Part shown: positions 55,419 through 61,827 of the stretch, piece by piece
Layout of the letters: each line of letters starts with the position of its first letter
Position numbering within the stretch: the stretch's first letter is position 1
NCBI GenBank assembly: GCA_017303715.1
Contig: JAFLBZ010000001.1
Coordinates: 62,001 to 126,000 of the forward strand
DNA from: Rhodothermia bacterium
GTDB taxonomy: Bacteria; Bacteroidota; Rhodothermia; Rhodothermales; UBA2364
Length of the DNA: 64,000 nt
Direction: 5' to 3'
Position numbers and translations under genes: made by a program
The notes under the pieces: model-generated
What the model saw: the letters and a program-made list of their open reading frames with translations, nothing else
Database searches by the model: none
What the model was told of the DNA's origin: nothing

Positions 55419-57422
55419 TTAGTACGCCAATAAGTTGTTTAAGGACTGCCGCAAACGTGCCTTTGCCGCATAGACCTCTTGCTCAATTTGTGTTGAAAAG
55501 GCAATTGGGAAATTGGCTCCGGTAACCCGTTTTGGTGGCGCATCCAAATGTTCAAACGCCGTCTCGATGACTTCTGAGGTAATCTCGGCACCAAATCCGC
55601 CCGTCCCATGAGCTTCATGCAAAACCAAAAGCCGGTTTGTTTTGCGAACAGATGCCAAAACGGTCTCACGATCCCAAGGAACCAAAGTTCGCAAATCAAT
55701 GACTTCTACTAACTTGCCCTCTTTTGCCCAAAATGCAGCCTCCTCCACAGCCCAGCGCGTCCCCAATCCCCACGTTACAAGTGTGGCAGCATCGCCAACG
55801 TGAAGGATCCGTGCTTTGCCAATGGGCGTAAAATAGTCGCCATCGGGCAAAGATCCTTTTTCGTTTCGGTACAAAAATTTGTGTTCAAAAACCAAGACCG
55901 GATTCGGCTCTACGATCGCGGCCATGAGCAAGCCTTTTGCATCAGCAGGCGTGGCCGGAACCACAACTTTGAGTCCGGGAACATGGCAAAACCACGCTTC
56001 TGGTGATTGGCTGTGGAAGGGTCCCGCGCCAATATAACCACCGAATGGCGCACGAATAGTCACGTTTACAGGTGCACCCCAACGATAATGCGTTGTGGCC
56101 AAGTTGTTGACGATCTGGTTAAACCCGCAAGAGATAAAATCGGCATATTGCATTTCCACCACCGGTTTAAAGCCTTCTAAGGCCAAGCCAAGCGCCGCAC
56201 CCAAAACACCACTCTCCATAATGGGTGTATTTCTTACCCGTTCTAAACCAAATTCCTTCGCAAAGCCTTCGGTTACTTTAAACACGCCACCATAGCCCGC
56301 AATGTCTTGCCCCATCAAAAGTACCTTTTCGTCTTTTTGCATGGCAAGCCGTAGTGCATCAGTTACGCCATCAATAAATCTTTTTTCTGGCGCATCGGGT
56401 GGCAGCTCCATTATTGGTCGTGTAGGAGAAGGAGCATAGACATCGGTCAATTCCTTTTCCAAAGTGCTTTTTACTTCTGGCTGGTCTAAAGCGAAGCGAA
56501 CTGCAACCTCAATTTCGGCAAGCAAATGATCTTCTATTTCCTTCAAATCGGTTTCGGATAAGCCTTTTATCTCAAGAATTTGTTTTTTGAAACGTTGGAT
56601 TGGATCTTTTTGTGACCATTCTTCAAACAAGTGAGGTGGTACGTATTTCACGCCAGAGGCTTCCTCGTGCCCGCGCATACGGAAGGTTTTCATCTCTAAG
56701 AGTGTCGGTCCGCCGCCAGCTCGCGCCGTTTTTGCGGCATTTTCTATTGCACTAATGACAGCCATTAAGTCGTTACCATCAACCGAATGACCGGGCATTC
56801 CATAACCAAACGCGGCATCAGCCAAGTTTTCTACCGGAATAACTTCCTGTGTAGGCGTGGAAAGGCCATAACCATTGTTTTCTATGACAAAAATAACGGG
56901 CAGTTTCCAAGCTGCGGCCAAGCTAAGTGCTTCGTGGAAATCACCTTCGCGGGTAGCTCCTTCCCCCACAAAAGCGAGGGCTACTTTTTGCGAGCCTTCC
57001 AATTTTGTCGCCAAACCAAAGCCGCACGCAACGGGTAACATAGCGGCAAGGTGTGAAATCATCCCTACAATACGGTGATCCAATTTGCCAAAATGAAAGG
57101 TACGGTCTCGGCCATTTGTAAAGCCACCTTCTTTGCCCATCAACTGACAAAACAAGGGTTTAAGCGCAATACCTCTTGTGGTAAAAACGCCCAAATTGCG
57201 GTGCATGGGCAAGACCACATCATCCGGCGTGAGGCCCAAAACAGCCCCGACCGCAATGGCTTCTTGTCCATAACCGCTGAACCATTTGGTAATGCGGCCT
57301 TGACGGATAAGCCGAAGCATTTTTTCTTCGATAAGACGTGGTGTGACGAGTTTTTGATACAACAACAATGCCGAGGTTTTCTGAATGTCCTTTGGCAGGT
57401 GTTTATAAGGATCTTTAATCAT
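55419..57422 (-). CDS. 2-oxoacid dehydrogenase E1, alpha and beta parts fused (thiamine diphosphate)
   Basis: A 667-aa protein. The N-terminal half is E1-alpha with the ThDP/Mg motif GEGATREGDFHEAL ending in NNGYG (Gly153, Asn183). The C-terminal half from about residue 340 (VTDALRLAMQ, then GQDIAGYGGVF) is E1-beta with ESGVLGAALG. The alpha-beta fusion and sequence style match branched-chain 2-oxoacid or acetoin dehydrogenase E1. E2 and E3 genes are not in the window. The start at ATG 57422 is used instead of a GTG at 57443. The partner substrate is uncertain. Confidence 0.93.
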   Translation of the reverse strand: MIKDPYKHLPKDIQKTSALLLYQKLVTPRLIEEKMLRLIRQGRITKWFSGYGQEAIAVGAVLGLTPDDVVLPMHRNLGVFTTRGIALKPLFCQLMGKEGGFTNGRDRTFHFGKLDHRIVGMISHLAAMLPVACGFGLATKLEGSQKVALAFVGEGATREGDFHEALSLAAAWKLPVIFVIENNGYGLSTPTQEVIPVENLADAAFGYGMPGHSVDGNDLMAVISAIENAAKTARAGGGPTLLEMKTFRMRGHEEASGVKYVPPHLFEEWSQKDPIQRFKKQILEIKGLSETDLKEIEDHLLAEIEVAVRFALDQPEVKSTLEKELTDVYAPSPTRPIMELPPDAPEKRFIDGVTDALRLAMQKDEKVLLMGQDIAGYGGVFKVTEGFAKEFGLERVRNTPIMESGVLGAALGLALEGFKPVVEMQYADFISCGFNQIVNNLATTHYRWGAPVNVTIRAPFGGYIGAGPFHSQSPEAWFCHVPGLKVVVPATPADAKGLLMAAIVEPNPVLVFEHKFLYRNEKGSLPDGDYFTPIGKARILHVGDAATLVTWGLGTRWAVEEAAFWAKEGKLVEVIDLRTLVPWDRETVLASVRKTNRLLVLHEAHGTGGFGAEITSEVIETAFEHLDAPPKRVTGANFPIAFSTQIEQEVYAAKARLRQSLNNLLAY

Positions 57423-57442
57423 CGGTTTTAGGGGACAATACA

Positions 57443-57476
57443 CGAAAACCGGAAGATACCAAAAGCCCTTCCGGTT
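57443..57476 (-). terminator. Terminator of the M36 peptidase gene
   Basis: AACCGGAAG (57447-57455) pairs perfectly with CTTCCGGTT (57468-57476). On the minus strand a short T run follows. It lies between the peptidase stop and the E1 start. Confidence 0.75.
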
Positions 57477-57506: not shown

Positions 57507-60476
57507 CTATCGTAGAAGTACCATTTTTTGCACCTCCGAAAAGTCCTCTCCAACAATCCGGCAGAAATAAACACCATTTGGCAGCGCGGCTCTTTCCACT
57601 TTTACGGTTTGCCATTCACCTCCTTGAACCACACCACTAAACACCTCGCCCACATGCCGGCCCAAGAGGTCGTGCAGCGTCACGTTTACTTTTTGCGGTT
57701 TGGCCACCCGAAAACGCAGATTGGCTTGTTGTTTAAATGGATTGGGCCAAATCTTTTCCATTTCGTGGGTAATGGGGAGTGCGGGGCGCTCGGCGTCAAC
57801 AGGCGTACTGAAGACAACCATAAAGTTTGTTTTGGTGCACACTTGGTCTCCCTCATGAGATGTTAGACAAACTTCGGAGGCTAAAGTCGCCTGATCTGCA
57901 ATTAAAACATCGTCCACATGCCAGCCTTGTATGCCTGTCACAATATCGCTCGCAAACCGGAATCGTACCAGAATGGACTGATCAATGTAGCTGCTTAAAT
58001 CGGCAACGCTGTTCAAGTATTTTTGGGATGAACCCGTAAACGCATTTCGGTTGGTTAACGGTGTAGCGAAGGTAGAGGTTATTTTCCCGTTGTAGCCATT
58101 GGTCATCCACTTTGAATCCAAATCTTGCCAATTATTGCCACCATCTACCGAGACTTCTACTACACCACCGTCGCTATAAAATTCTGTATTGTAATAATGC
58201 CAAAAGCTCAAGATCGGGCTTCCCGCCTGTAATTTGATGGGCTTGGCCAAGGTCAACGTCAAGTCTGTTGCTTCCCCTTGGTTCTGAACAAATGCACTGC
58301 TCTTGCCACTATGAGGCTGCATCAAATTAGCCGTCCAACCAAAATTGCGGGCATCTTTTGGCGCAACCCATTGGCTAAGCCCCTGTTCAAAATCATCTGC
58401 GACATAACGTTTGCCTGTTTGGTTTTGTAATCTCACCACAAATGAACACGTTTTAAACCCAAATGCCGCCAGATCGCCAATGGAGAGTACAAGTTTTCCA
58501 TCGAGCAAACTCGTCGGACAAGTTGTATTTCCATCCTGATAAACCATATCGCTTGGCAATGAAACCGTGACTTTCACATTGGATTTTGTTTGTGAACTGT
58601 TGTTGTTAATCTCCACCTTCATTTCGGCATCTTTGTCAAAATTGAGGGATGACTCCTCGGCTTGATAAACGATATGGAGTCCTTTTGCAGGCAAAGTATA
58701 GCCACGATTCACCAGAATCTGATACACTTGATCCATTTGTGCAGCCGATGCGCCCATCAAGCGGAGTACCAAATAAAACGCATTAAAATAATCGTTTTGG
58801 TTGGAGTCCCGATTGGTCATCCCGACGGCGGTAAGTGCGGCTTTATCGGTCAACGTCCGTCCTAAAATAGGCCATATTTCCATCAATGTAGCAGAAAGGA
58901 TTTGCCCATTTCGCTCACGGAGGGATCCGCCAGTACTTACAATGCCACTTGGGAAGGTATTGGGGTAAAGGGTGGTACGCCCCGTCCAAAAAGGGTTGTG
59001 CCCATCCCACCGAAACACATGGTGGTAAGAAGCCTCTGTTGACGCCCAAGGCTGCACCGTCCAAATGTAGGACTGTGTCCAATAGTCTGCAAAACCTTCC
59101 GCAAGCCCATCGTTCGTCGCATTTGAGATGCTCCCCAACGTCATACGGTCATGCAAGGCGTGGGCTGTTTCGTGCCAAACTACACCTGCATCCTCGGCAT
59201 CGTCCACACCACCTTCTCCAAAAACCAAGAACCCCGTAGAAGGATCGTACTGAGAATTATCACTTCCATTCAAAGCACTTGCATCAAACCATTGGGTGGT
59301 GGAATTACCCGTGTGGCGATTTGGGATAGAGAAACCCAATGTCTCTGCTGTATATCGCAGGTTTTTATCTATGTGATAATATGCGTTGACGGCCTCAAAC
59401 ATATCTTCGGTGCGCGTCGTCGAAAAATCATTACTGCTTTGTTCGAACAAGCCCTTAAATGGTGCGCCTGTATCCGCAATCCACGCATATTTACCGCGTA
59501 GGAAATATTGCCCATTTTCTAAGGAAAGGTCATTCAGCACCACGTCTTTGAGTTGTGCACTGAGTTCCGGCGAGTCGGCATCGTTGTTATCTGACAAGCC
59601 CGGAGCGCCATAAAGTTGCTTGGCAGAAGTCACAGGATCGGGATCAAAGACTTTACCCATGCCTTCCACAAATCGTTGCGTACCAATGACCCTTACCGTA
59701 CTTTCGGTGTTGGTAAACGGTAAGGCCACCTCCTTTTTTGTCATGGCGACTAATGCTTTTGCTTCCAAAATGGCTTCGTGGGAATGTTTGCATTTCACGG
59801 CCAGCGATTCTTTTTGAAGGACGTCTCCCCGCTCGGCGGAAATCCAAACGGCCCAATAGTGTTGGTGTTCGGGGTGGTACACCTCCACCCGACGGGCTTC
59901 TACCCAAATACCAGCAGCATCAATCACCCAAACGGAAGTGGCTCTTACCGGAAATCCGGGGGTTTCCTCATTTTCATCACGGAGAATTGCAGCCCTTGCA
60001 ACTGCATCCTCGCGTGCCAATCGCCGCCGAAGAGGTCGCTTCTGGGTCTCCATATTTTTGGGGACGGATTTAAAGGAAGAGGTGGTAAAAAGTACCTCCC
60101 CGCCATGCGTGATGGTCACGACGACTTCGCCGCCTTCAACGGCAATTCCTTGAAAGACTTGCTGAAATCGCACGGCTTGTCCAAACGGCAAAGTCGTGTG
60201 ACCAAGATATTCGAGCATATCCTCAGGTAGTTTAGGCATCCCAAAGAGTTGGGCGGAGCGTTCATTTATATACGCCCGAGCTTGATCCTGTGGTGTTCCG
60301 GCTTGTGCGGCATAACGGCTTGAATAAAGTGCGCGTGGCAAACCAGAAGCCGCGTCATACCGTCCAGAACCGTTTATTTTTGGGTTCTGCTGTGCCTGCA
60401 CATCAGAAAAATGGAGGAACAACGCCAAGCAAGAAAAAAGCCTTAAGGCATATATTCTCTTTAAGTTGTAGATCAT
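57507..60476 (-). CDS. Secreted M36 (fungalysin-like) zinc metallopeptidase with T9SS sorting domain
   Basis: A 989-aa exported peptidase. The signal peptide is LRLFSCLALFLHFSDVQAQ, and ATG 60476 is used rather than a TTG at 60497. Next come a thermolysin-type propeptide (FTP-like, about residues 40-200) and the catalytic domain with HETAH (His435, Glu436, His439) and the third ligand in GLAEGFADYW. A MAM/immune-inhibitor-A-like beta domain follows around residues 700-860. The last 85 residues (WPNPFKQQANLRF, then PNGVYFCRI) are a T9SS type A sorting signal. It should be cell-surface or extracellular. It starts 4 bases after the stop of the haem/copper lipoprotein gene. Confidence 0.93.
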   Translation of the reverse strand: MIYNLKRIYALRLFSCLALFLHFSDVQAQQNPKINGSGRYDAASGLPRALYSSRYAAQAGTPQDQARAYINERSAQLFGMPKLPEDMLEYLGHTTLPFGQAVRFQQVFQGIAVEGGEVVVTITHGGEVLFTTSSFKSVPKNMETQKRPLRRRLAREDAVARAAILRDENEETPGFPVRATSVWVIDAAGIWVEARRVEVYHPEHQHYWAVWISAERGDVLQKESLAVKCKHSHEAILEAKALVAMTKKEVALPFTNTESTVRVIGTQRFVEGMGKVFDPDPVTSAKQLYGAPGLSDNNDADSPELSAQLKDVVLNDLSLENGQYFLRGKYAWIADTGAPFKGLFEQSSNDFSTTRTEDMFEAVNAYYHIDKNLRYTAETLGFSIPNRHTGNSTTQWFDASALNGSDNSQYDPSTGFLVFGEGGVDDAEDAGVVWHETAHALHDRMTLGSISNATNDGLAEGFADYWTQSYIWTVQPWASTEASYHHVFRWDGHNPFWTGRTTLYPNTFPSGIVSTGGSLRERNGQILSATLMEIWPILGRTLTDKAALTAVGMTNRDSNQNDYFNAFYLVLRLMGASAAQMDQVYQILVNRGYTLPAKGLHIVYQAEESSLNFDKDAEMKVEINNNSSQTKSNVKVTVSLPSDMVYQDGNTTCPTSLLDGKLVLSIGDLAAFGFKTCSFVVRLQNQTGKRYVADDFEQGLSQWVAPKDARNFGWTANLMQPHSGKSSAFVQNQGEATDLTLTLAKPIKLQAGSPILSFWHYYNTEFYSDGGVVEVSVDGGNNWQDLDSKWMTNGYNGKITSTFATPLTNRNAFTGSSQKYLNSVADLSSYIDQSILVRFRFASDIVTGIQGWHVDDVLIADQATLASEVCLTSHEGDQVCTKTNFMVVFSTPVDAERPALPITHEMEKIWPNPFKQQANLRFRVAKPQKVNVTLHDLLGRHVGEVFSGVVQGGEWQTVKVERAALPNGVYFCRIVGEDFSEVQKMVLLR

Positions 60477-60480
60477 AAGT

Positions 60481-61827
60481 TTAATAAAAATAACCAAATA
60501 AGATCATCATTTCATCATCGGCAGTAAGCCCAAAAGAAATTGCATTGTTCGTTGTATTGTCATATGTGGCTTCTAAACGCAATTTAGTTCCAGCCTCCAG
60601 AATGAGCGGATCGTTAAACGTAAGAATAGGGGGATGCTCCCAATCATCTGCAAAATAGACCATTTTACCATTATTTGCCCCGCCCTCCACAAACACCTTG
60701 AAGGCCGTCATGTATTGGTGGGCATGGCTAAAGAGCATAATGATTCGGGTTTGTTTGTTAAAAGTGAAGGTTTTCTGTAGGGTCGTTTTTTGTTTTGGGG
60801 GCAAAAAGATACTTGTATTGTTCAGGTCTAAGATATTGGCCTCATACTTTACTTGGCTTTTATCCACCGTATGTAGGTTTGCATAAACCTCCCCTGTAAT
60901 GCTTTCTTTGCCCCGATTCACATAGTGGGAATTTAGGTCAAAGCCCGTATTTGCTGGCATTTTCAGCGCTACCCCTTCCGGAAAGGTGTAATCAAGACGT
61001 GGCCATTGCGTTCCACCAAAAAAGGTATGGTATTGCATGGGCGCAGCATTTAGCATATTAAAACCGCCATTTGCATCCCAAAGATCCCTGATTACTCCCT
61101 CTTTTGGCATGATTGAACTAGGGGTATTGGCCCTAAAATTATAGATCAAAAAGTGATGGCTTCCGGCACGCATTTCAATCTCAAACCGCTTCACATAGGT
61201 ATCCGCTATATTTCCCACTTTCTGAAAAACAAAAAACTCGCGGTTAAAGTTTGGGGCAACGTCAAAAGGCCCAAGTTTTAGTTGATAACCCTGTGCTGGC
61301 TTTTCTAATGGGCGGAATGCGGGACGTTCATAACGCCTTGTATCCTCCAAAACCTTTAAGTCCACCACCTTTCCTACTTTTGGCGCACCTGCCACAATCC
61401 ATTGACGGAGTAATTCCAATTCGCCATTTGTAAGTGGATCACCTCCAAGTGGCATTAATGCGCCGTAATTTGGATGATCATTATAAAAATGGTCTTCATC
61501 TGGATAATTGACCTTTTCCCAAAAATAGCTTCTGTACAAACTGGGCAACCCTTGTGTACCTACCATTTCTAATCCATCTTTTTTGGCGGAGGCATTTTTC
61601 ACCTGACTGTTCACCGTCTCCTCGTAAGCCAAATCTTCTGTGAGTATCAAACCAGACTGTTCCGCAAAACTAGAACCAGCAACGTGGCAATTGGCACATT
61701 TTGGGGTTAAAATGCGGGTTTGGATAGAGCGCCATGTGGTTGAATCGTCAAATTCATCTACATTCTTGACATCACAGCCCATCAGAAGGAGCGCAAAGAG
61801 GAAAAAAAACAAAGCGTTTGACTTCAT
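60481..61827 (-). CDS. Lipoprotein with haem-binding and copper type II monooxygenase-like domains
   Basis: A 448-aa lipoprotein (lipobox LLMGC, Cys18). The N-terminal half binds haem c: CxxCH at Cys44-Cys47-His48 and a likely axial Met125 in ALMPLGG. The C-terminal half resembles the copper ascorbate-dependent monooxygenase (PHM/DBM) fold: paired His224-His225 (AGSHHFL), His267, His301 (SHYVNR), His368/His370 (FSHAHQ) and Met440 in DDEMMILFGYFY. In PHM these positions hold the two copper sites. The haem may feed electrons to the copper (inference). Substrate is unknown. It is coupled, 4 bases apart, to the M36 peptidase. Confidence 0.75.
   Translation of the reverse strand: MKSNALFFFLFALLLMGCDVKNVDEFDDSTTWRSIQTRILTPKCANCHVAGSSFAEQSGLILTEDLAYEETVNSQVKNASAKKDGLEMVGTQGLPSLYRSYFWEKVNYPDEDHFYNDHPNYGALMPLGGDPLTNGELELLRQWIVAGAPKVGKVVDLKVLEDTRRYERPAFRPLEKPAQGYQLKLGPFDVAPNFNREFFVFQKVGNIADTYVKRFEIEMRAGSHHFLIYNFRANTPSSIMPKEGVIRDLWDANGGFNMLNAAPMQYHTFFGGTQWPRLDYTFPEGVALKMPANTGFDLNSHYVNRGKESITGEVYANLHTVDKSQVKYEANILDLNNTSIFLPPKQKTTLQKTFTFNKQTRIIMLFSHAHQYMTAFKVFVEGGANNGKMVYFADDWEHPPILTFNDPLILEAGTKLRLEATYDNTTNNAISFGLTADDEMMILFGYFY

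Follow-up and report, generated by a model that had tools for sequence, protein, structure and literature searches.

A haem c lipoprotein with a PHM/DBM-like dicopper domain, encoded beside an M36-like metallopeptidase in a Rhodothermia bacterium

The locus and its two genes

A stretch of 64,000 nucleotides from a Rhodothermia bacterium (contig JAFLBZ010000001.1, positions 62,001 to 126,000), hereafter the window, carries two genes on the minus strand that together span 57507-61827. The first in the reading direction encodes a lipoprotein in which a haem c domain precedes a copper domain of the PHM/DBM type, and the second encodes a metallopeptidase with a sorting tail for the type IX secretion system (T9SS). 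PHM and DBH are animal copper enzymes, which finish peptide hormones and make noradrenaline, respectively, and PHM/DBM are the textbook uncoupled dicopper enzymes, using ascorbate in animals. Among bacterial haem-c/PHM fusions, the family of the lipoprotein forms a divergent branch; it is PHM/DBM-like by its fold and its copper ligands, and not PHM proper.

An original prediction, made from the sequence alone, had described two genes 4 bases apart, one joining a CxxCH haem c site to a PHM/DBM-like copper domain and the other encoding a T9SS metallopeptidase. This description of the locus was borne out: the gap between the lipoprotein stop and the peptidase start occupies 60477-60480, the genes are co-directional and probably co-transcribed, all six copper ligands were placed, and the peptidase has the motifs HETAH and EGFAD together with a TIGR04183 tail (Table 1). 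For the peptidase, an alternative TTG start at 60497, given by the open reading frame (ORF) listing, would run into the lipoprotein gene, and the ATG was preferred. The lipoprotein contains three cysteines in all, C18, C44 and C47, which, as read from the sequence, would be accounted for by the lipid and the haem. No RNA family scored above its gathering score between 54000 and 64000, and promoter and terminator patterns at the locus did not rise above the level of shuffled sequence.

Table 1. Features of the lipoprotein and peptidase genes, in window coordinates
Feature	Position	Strand	Basis
Haem-c/PHM-like lipoprotein gene, 448 aa	60481..61827	-	ORF and translation; full-length homologues
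Lipobox Cys18 codon (LLMG|C)	61774..61776	-	Sequence; lipobox-like Cys in 55/65 untailed rows
Haem c domain, about residues 27-165	61333..61749	-	AlphaFold segment; weak similarity to c-type cytochromes
Haem attachment site C44-A-N-C47-H48	61684..61698	-	C, C, H in 81/81 rows
M125 (MPLG), probable distal haem ligand	61453..61455	-	81/81 rows; putative role
PHM/DBM-like dicopper domain, residues 171-448	60484..61317	-	VIA-align and Foldseek to PHM/DBH
H224 and H225, CuH ligands (PHM H107, H108)	61153..61158	-	Alignment register, conservation
H301, CuH ligand (PHM H172)	60925..60927	-	Alignment register, conservation
H368-A-H370, CuM ligands (PHM H242, H244)	60718..60726	-	Alignment register, conservation
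M440, CuM ligand (PHM M314)	60508..60510	-	Register; offset 126 to PHM numbering
M36-like T9SS metallopeptidase gene, 989 aa	57507..60476	-	Read from ATG at 60476
Peptidase HETAH zinc motif, residues 435-439; EGFAD from residue 460	59160..59174 (HETAH)	-	Sequence
Peptidase T9SS type A sorting domain, residues 909-986	57519..57752	-	TIGR04183 36.7 bits, cut-off 23

Copper and haem domains

As a single sequence, the lipoprotein gives a weak copper-domain signal, which homologues, a joint profile and structure make strong. Against Pfam Cu2_monoox_C (PF03712), it scored 18.1 bits by hmmscan, with a cut-off of 23, and 26.1 bits in a six-frame search of the genome; a PDB search with the single sequence returned no PHM match, and an earlier contig scan with it as the only query returned no relatives. 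Alignment A1, comprising 19 full-length proteins from the order and the phylum (the window's included), was then used in the contig scan and gave 393 relatives; the 80 best were kept. The conservation counts below are for 81 rows, namely the window protein and these 80 closest relatives; start codons of homologues were assigned heuristically. In alignment A2, which has 59 rows in all, 58 of the 80 relatives were retained, the other 22 being truncated, masked or trimmed for size, and 35 of its 59 rows matched Cu2_monoox_C at E <= 0.1. A further alignment, A5, was made of 50 of 57 segments, drawn from 57 of the 59 A2 rows.

The PHM-like kind is already known in bacteria, since the Pfam copper-domain model matches bacterial members. 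A search of the window's phylum with PF03712 gave 31 matches, spread over 28 of 296 genomes, and 30 loci were fetched. The model overlooks true homologues: two genomes (G007 and G029) were unmatched despite having full-length relatives of the lipoprotein (54% and 48% identical). From 17 classical bacterial PHM-like loci of the phylum, 15 proteins were aligned as A3, leaving out L038, which has a long N-terminal extension, and L039, which reaches a contig end. The comparison of the A2 and A3 profiles gave a probability of 99.8% and an E value of 4e-28 over columns 9-448, that is, the full length. The A3 profile alone reached human DBH at E 3.5e-10. With the joint alignment A4 (24 rows, 16 from the window family and 8 classical bacterial PHM-like proteins), human DBH was matched at E 7.3e-13 and rat PHM at E 5.6e-11, with the six copper ligands in register. 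A4 has 13 invariant columns, 9 of which are the haem C, C and H and the six copper ligands; the chance of such an overlap under a random draw of columns is 4e-16, a figure that treats as exchangeable columns which are not truly so. The copper domain of the lipoprotein is real.

In this register, with the PHM ligands named as in the available part of PMC6123673, the three histidines of the CuH site (H107, H108 and H172 in PHM) have their counterparts in H224, H225 and H301, and the His-X-His and Met of the CuM site (H242, H244 and M314) in H368, H370 and M440, a correspondence of sequence and not of geometry. An offset of 126 from the PHM numbering is common to the three CuM residues and to the point at which the structural superposition ends. 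C44, C47, H48, M125, H224, H225, H301 and H370 were found in 81/81 rows, H368 in 80/81 (the other row has X) and M440 in 80/81 (the other row is at a contig end). All ligands are invariant in 19/19 rows of A1, at identities down to 35%.

The structural prediction is consistent with this assignment. The AlphaFold model, built with 59 sequences, has a pLDDT of 90.2 and a pTM of 0.83. A Foldseek search with it placed only PHM or DBH at ranks 1-31, with E values from 8.6e-15 to 5.3e-10, another fold first appearing at 6.5e-6, and VIA-align superposed model residues 171-448 on residues 45-322 of PHM (3mib) with Z 22.7 and a root-mean-square deviation of 3.0 over 260 residues, the next fold having Z 8.7. 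Comparison of a model with PHM had been proposed with the original prediction, and the whole domain superposes. The lipoprotein is thus predicted, from the model, to have the PHM catalytic-core fold with its two beta-sandwich domains. Rat PHM (PDB 1phm, 1opm and 3mib) shares with it these two domains and all six copper ligands, at 12% identity. Human DBH (PDB 4zel) shares the fold and the ligands, and is the best sequence match of the joint profile. DBH, whose substrates are phenylethylamines, contains a DOMON domain and lacks haem c.

Multiplication of the whole unit was observed in a homologue from a KSB1 metagenome-assembled genome (MAG): L083 (5150-9367, 1406 aa) consists of three tandem haem-c/PHM modules followed by a T9SS tail, and L084 is alike and cut by the contig. 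All three modules of L083 have the haem motif; judged by eye, the first alone retains every copper ligand.

A PHM fold could also serve a non-catalytic or different redox role, such as a copper or haem sensor, an oxidase, or nitrite or NO chemistry. That two of the three L083 modules have, by eye, lost most of their copper ligands fits such a role, as does the fact that an activity of a bacterial member was not found in the open PMC literature among the matches listed. The strict keeping of six ligands in the family, the CuM methionine included, favours copper catalysis instead, and we regard such a role as highly unlikely.

Turning to the haem part, C-X2-4-CH was found upstream of the copper domain in 29 of the 30 PF03712 loci, the thirtieth (L039) ending with its contig; L042, among the loci numbered here, is the same gene as L052 and has CX3CH. 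Haem fusion therefore looks like the rule among the PHM-like proteins found in the window's phylum, and not an oddity of the window. The classical A3 proteins have the same order, haem c and then the PHM domain, with homology over the full length. They differ from the lipoprotein in being 17-23% identical to it and in having a haem domain that is shorter and contains an MPP motif, and they carry Q at the place of PHM Q170 in 12/15 cases, whereas the window family has N there (N299) in 81/81 rows.

By profile, the haem domain is weakly similar to cytochrome c6 and to hydrazine synthase alpha (3.6e-4 with A4), and a few A2 rows matched cytochrome families. The second module of L083 matched TIGR03806, the SO2930 family of diheme c-type cytochromes, at 1.8e-9 and 37 bits, with a cut-off of 313; the likeness to TIGR03806 and to hydrazine synthase alpha is confined to the haem part of the lipoprotein. 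This part also matched fatty acid cis/trans isomerase weakly, in 32 of the 59 A2 rows, the window protein scoring 16.5 bits against a cut-off of 25 over residues 112-155. Modelled alone, the haem domain has a pLDDT of 92.3. The axial haem ligands are probably H48 and M125, the latter in a putative role.

Substrate site, the peptidase and other neighbours

In PHM, residues R240, N316 and Y318 are those which we take to be the binders of the C-terminal carboxylate of the peptide. Their equivalents in the lipoprotein, in the A4 register, are F366, I442 and F444. Across the 81 rows, the R240 place holds F in 42, T in 13, V in 8, W in 7, M in 5, L in 4, N in 1 and S in 1, with no Arg; the N316 place holds I in 76, F in 3, A in 1 and a gap in 1; and the Y318 place holds F in 75, Y in 5 and a gap in 1. 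The classical relatives likewise have no Arg at the R240 place, and have Y at the Y318 place in 12/15. The replaced trio, a departure from PHM read at the sequence level, argues against a peptidyl-glycine substrate and not against hydroxylation. The PAL lyase domain (NHL propeller) of PAM, the bifunctional amidating enzyme, was not among the 3 Pfam families listed for the lipoprotein at E <= 1.

These residues bear on the function first proposed for the locus, in which the peptidase frees peptides at the cell surface for the copper enzyme to hydroxylate at their C-terminal glycine. The neighbour itself is, on its sequence features, an M36-like T9SS metallopeptidase: it has an FTP propeptide motif (28.5 bits), HETAH and EGFAD, an InhA-like MAM domain and the T9SS tail, and scores 17.3 bits against Pfam M36 (PF02128), under the cut-off of 23.3. 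NF038113, the T9SS-dependent M36 metallopeptidase family, has in common with it the FTP motif, HExxH and Glu, the MAM domain and the T9SS tail; the window peptidase scores 54.9 bits against it, where the cut-off is 885. The 4-base gap and the common strand are in keeping with a joint function, as is the occurrence of the pair in each of the three genomes in the genus, and the nearest solved fold of the copper domain is indeed PHM, together with DBH.

Beyond the genus, the pairing was not seen among the homologous loci, which number 98 and represent 92 distinct places, six pairs coinciding. The catalytic part of the peptidase was found at L047, L048 and L065, with L048 coinciding with L065, so that it is present in 2 of the 92 distinct places beside the window, and the peptidase-bearing places, the window and two other genomes, all lie within the genus; the neighbourhood count includes loci that end soon after the gene. 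Among 60 genomes, similar peptidases occur in 49 and the full-length copper enzyme in 10, the window's own included; the peptidase is present in 9/10 genomes with the copper enzyme and in 40/50 without it (p 0.67), which is the background level. A neighbour with a T9SS tail is also not rare, given 82 T9SS-tail matches in the source genome. Nor is the persistence of the pair specific, since both other genomes of the genus have ORFs of like length and order after it. The peptidase coupling was rejected as a conserved link on these counts. The peptidase is a genus-level neighbour and not a conserved partner, and its membership in one functional system with the lipoprotein is not supported. The oxidation of peptidyl-glycine by a surface system that cuts and then oxidises peptides, as the original prediction had it, is left without support, with the places of the carboxylate binders changed, no PAL-type domain among the families listed and homologues mostly lacking the peptidase; we consider it the least probable of the readings.

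Downstream of the peptidase gene, at 55419-57443, lies a 674-aa ORF that by eye resembles a fused dehydrogenase E1 alpha-beta subunit, and the other genomes of the genus have an ORF of similar length at the corresponding position.

Other neighbours were surveyed at the 80 loci with a simple ORF picker. The nearest downstream neighbour is on the same strand in 39, on the opposite strand in 36 and absent in 5. Thirty neighbours were scanned with Pfam, 27 of the 78 close same-strand genes and 3 from other loci, and for 8 of the 30 nothing reached E <= 1e-5; the neighbour clustering was made without 4 of the 80 loci. In 16 loci, all from Neomarinimicrobiota/Marinimicrobia (of 30 such loci), members of one BLAST cluster stand directly downstream of the copper enzyme, with a spacing of 0-36 bases or a short overlap, within a wider syntenic block. 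The one member scanned, in L109 (7395-8612), is Lip_C lipase-like. L081, like four of its cluster mates, has an AMP-binding, acyl-CoA ligase-like gene upstream, and L070 has an enoyl-CoA hydratase gene downstream. Other scanned neighbours include a member of the beta-lactamase family, a phosphorylase, an NTPase and a peptidase M20.

These lipase-like and acyl-CoA genes are in keeping with a lipid or fatty-acid hydroxylase, which would act on acyl chains or other hydrophobic products of surface esterases and oxidise them. The mostly hydrophobic residues found where PHM has its carboxylate binders would suit such a substrate, and the fatty acid cis/trans isomerase match of the haem part points the same way, with the window protein under the cut-off. 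However, the association with a lipase does not extend past a single phylum, in which many flanking genes are also syntenic, and the other neighbours are unrelated. A substrate of this kind is unlikely, and still the best placed of the alternatives to the preferred reading.

AhpC/TSA-redoxin genes stand upstream of L061 (9460-10023) and L064 (5464-6081), both homologues from the window's phylum, and such a domain is fused in the classical relative L040, which weakly matches ResA. They are compatible with a peroxygenase or peroxide consumer, in which H2O2, instead of O2 and two electrons, would drive CuM and the haem would act as a redox regulator; according to the available part of PMC6123673, H2O2 can bypass a requirement of the PHM reaction. 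The redoxin link is limited to 3 cases, however, and may instead reflect thiol or metal handling, as the ResA match of L040 suggests. This chemistry appears somewhat less probable again than lipid hydroxylation.

Proposed role, anchoring and distribution

The reading that we prefer, and hold to be rather likely, is that the lipoprotein works outside the cytoplasm as a self-contained dicopper monooxygenase with the PHM/DBM fold, fed by its haem, on a substrate that is probably not a glycine-extended peptide. The lipoprotein would be exported, haem c would be attached at C44, C47 and H48, and a lipid on Cys18 would anchor the protein in the outer membrane, some relatives using the T9SS tail instead. 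Electrons from a periplasmic or surface respiratory chain would enter at the haem and pass to CuH (H224, H225 and H301) and on to CuM (H368, H370 and M440), where activated O2 would serve to hydroxylate a small substrate at a C-H bond. The N-terminal haem c domain, which is a difference from PHM, may thus stand in for the ascorbate on which the animal enzymes depend. Metal and haem occupancy, the electron route, hydroxylase activity and cell location are all inferred here.

Several observations weigh against this proposal. For the haem domain alone, Foldseek of the PDB gave no match at E <= 0.001, and VIA-align gave no Z >= 2 among 44 chains compared. A PDB search with family profile A2 alone did not return PHM. 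The catalytic core of PHM contains disulfides, which are not possible in the copper domain of the lipoprotein; in 80/81 rows the sequence beyond the haem motif has no further Cys, so that these disulfides are absent there too. No partner gene conserved across phyla was found among the nearest neighbours of the 80 loci, and the conservation counts are drawn from the closest relatives, with the other 313 outside them.

Two routes of anchoring were observed. The T9SS sorting domain TIGR04183 was found in 12 relatives, namely in 10/10 of one scanned set and in L083 and L136 among 5 long-tailed homologues; it also occurs in 8/15 A3 proteins. A lipobox-like Cys is present in 1/12 tailed and 55/65 untailed rows (p 5e-7, a value overstated because the rows are related); four rows were left out of this count, three cut by contigs and L084. 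The single tailed row with a lipobox has, by eye, a false motif, and several untailed rows without one look N-terminally shortened. Lipobox and tail are therefore mostly mutually exclusive in the family, as if anchoring routes had been swapped. Both would lead to the outer membrane or the surface, with the lipoprotein facing outwards. The source genome has SprA, two cytochrome c assembly family matches and, among its T9SS-tail matches, 81 above the cut-off.

By record titles, the best 80 of the 393 relatives come from Neomarinimicrobiota/Marinimicrobia (30), Bacteroidetes-type organisms including Rhodothermia (26), Gemmatimonadetes (9), Latescibacterota (5), KSB1 (2), Poribacteria (2), Planctomycetes (2), Proteobacteria (2) and Kapaibacterium (1); most are MAGs, so individual assignments may err. 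On a broader view, which we put forward tentatively and with less assurance than the reading of the lipoprotein itself, about eight phyla, by these titles, could deploy surface-anchored C-H hydroxylases of the PHM/DBM class whose copper pair is fed by a fused haem c and not by ascorbate, a form coupled to the respiratory chain, perhaps ancestral and with a new substrate class.

If this is true, bacteria would have a form, coupled to the respiratory chain, of a chemistry that the table of a 2020 review, in the part available, assigns to eukaryotes only, PHM and DBM being given there among the eukaryotic cuproproteins (PMC7435645). Among the matches listed in the open PMC literature, judged by titles and the starts of abstracts, none described a bacterial haem-c/PHM protein, and a term search in the available part of PMC6529398 did not find bacteria, prokaryotes or archaea mentioned. 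A widespread bacterial branch with all six ligands and a built-in haem would inform the question of electron delivery to two coppers 11 Å apart, would bear on the origin of the animal enzymes and might offer new extracellular hydroxylation chemistry. The interest of the locus lies, in this sense, outside the peptide-processing idea first proposed.

The family is also useful material for the study of non-standard haem c attachment. The spacing of the haem motif in the 81 rows is X2 in 72, X3 in 6 and X4 in 3, and attachment differs inside the one family, with CX4CH in L057-L064 and CX3CH in L049, L052 and L053. Finally, six genomes (G006, G007, G012, G023, G030 and G036; loci L012-L017) have separate frames of 159-177 aa that resemble the haem domain only, with no copper domain in the match, and the frame of G030 has a stop inside the match.

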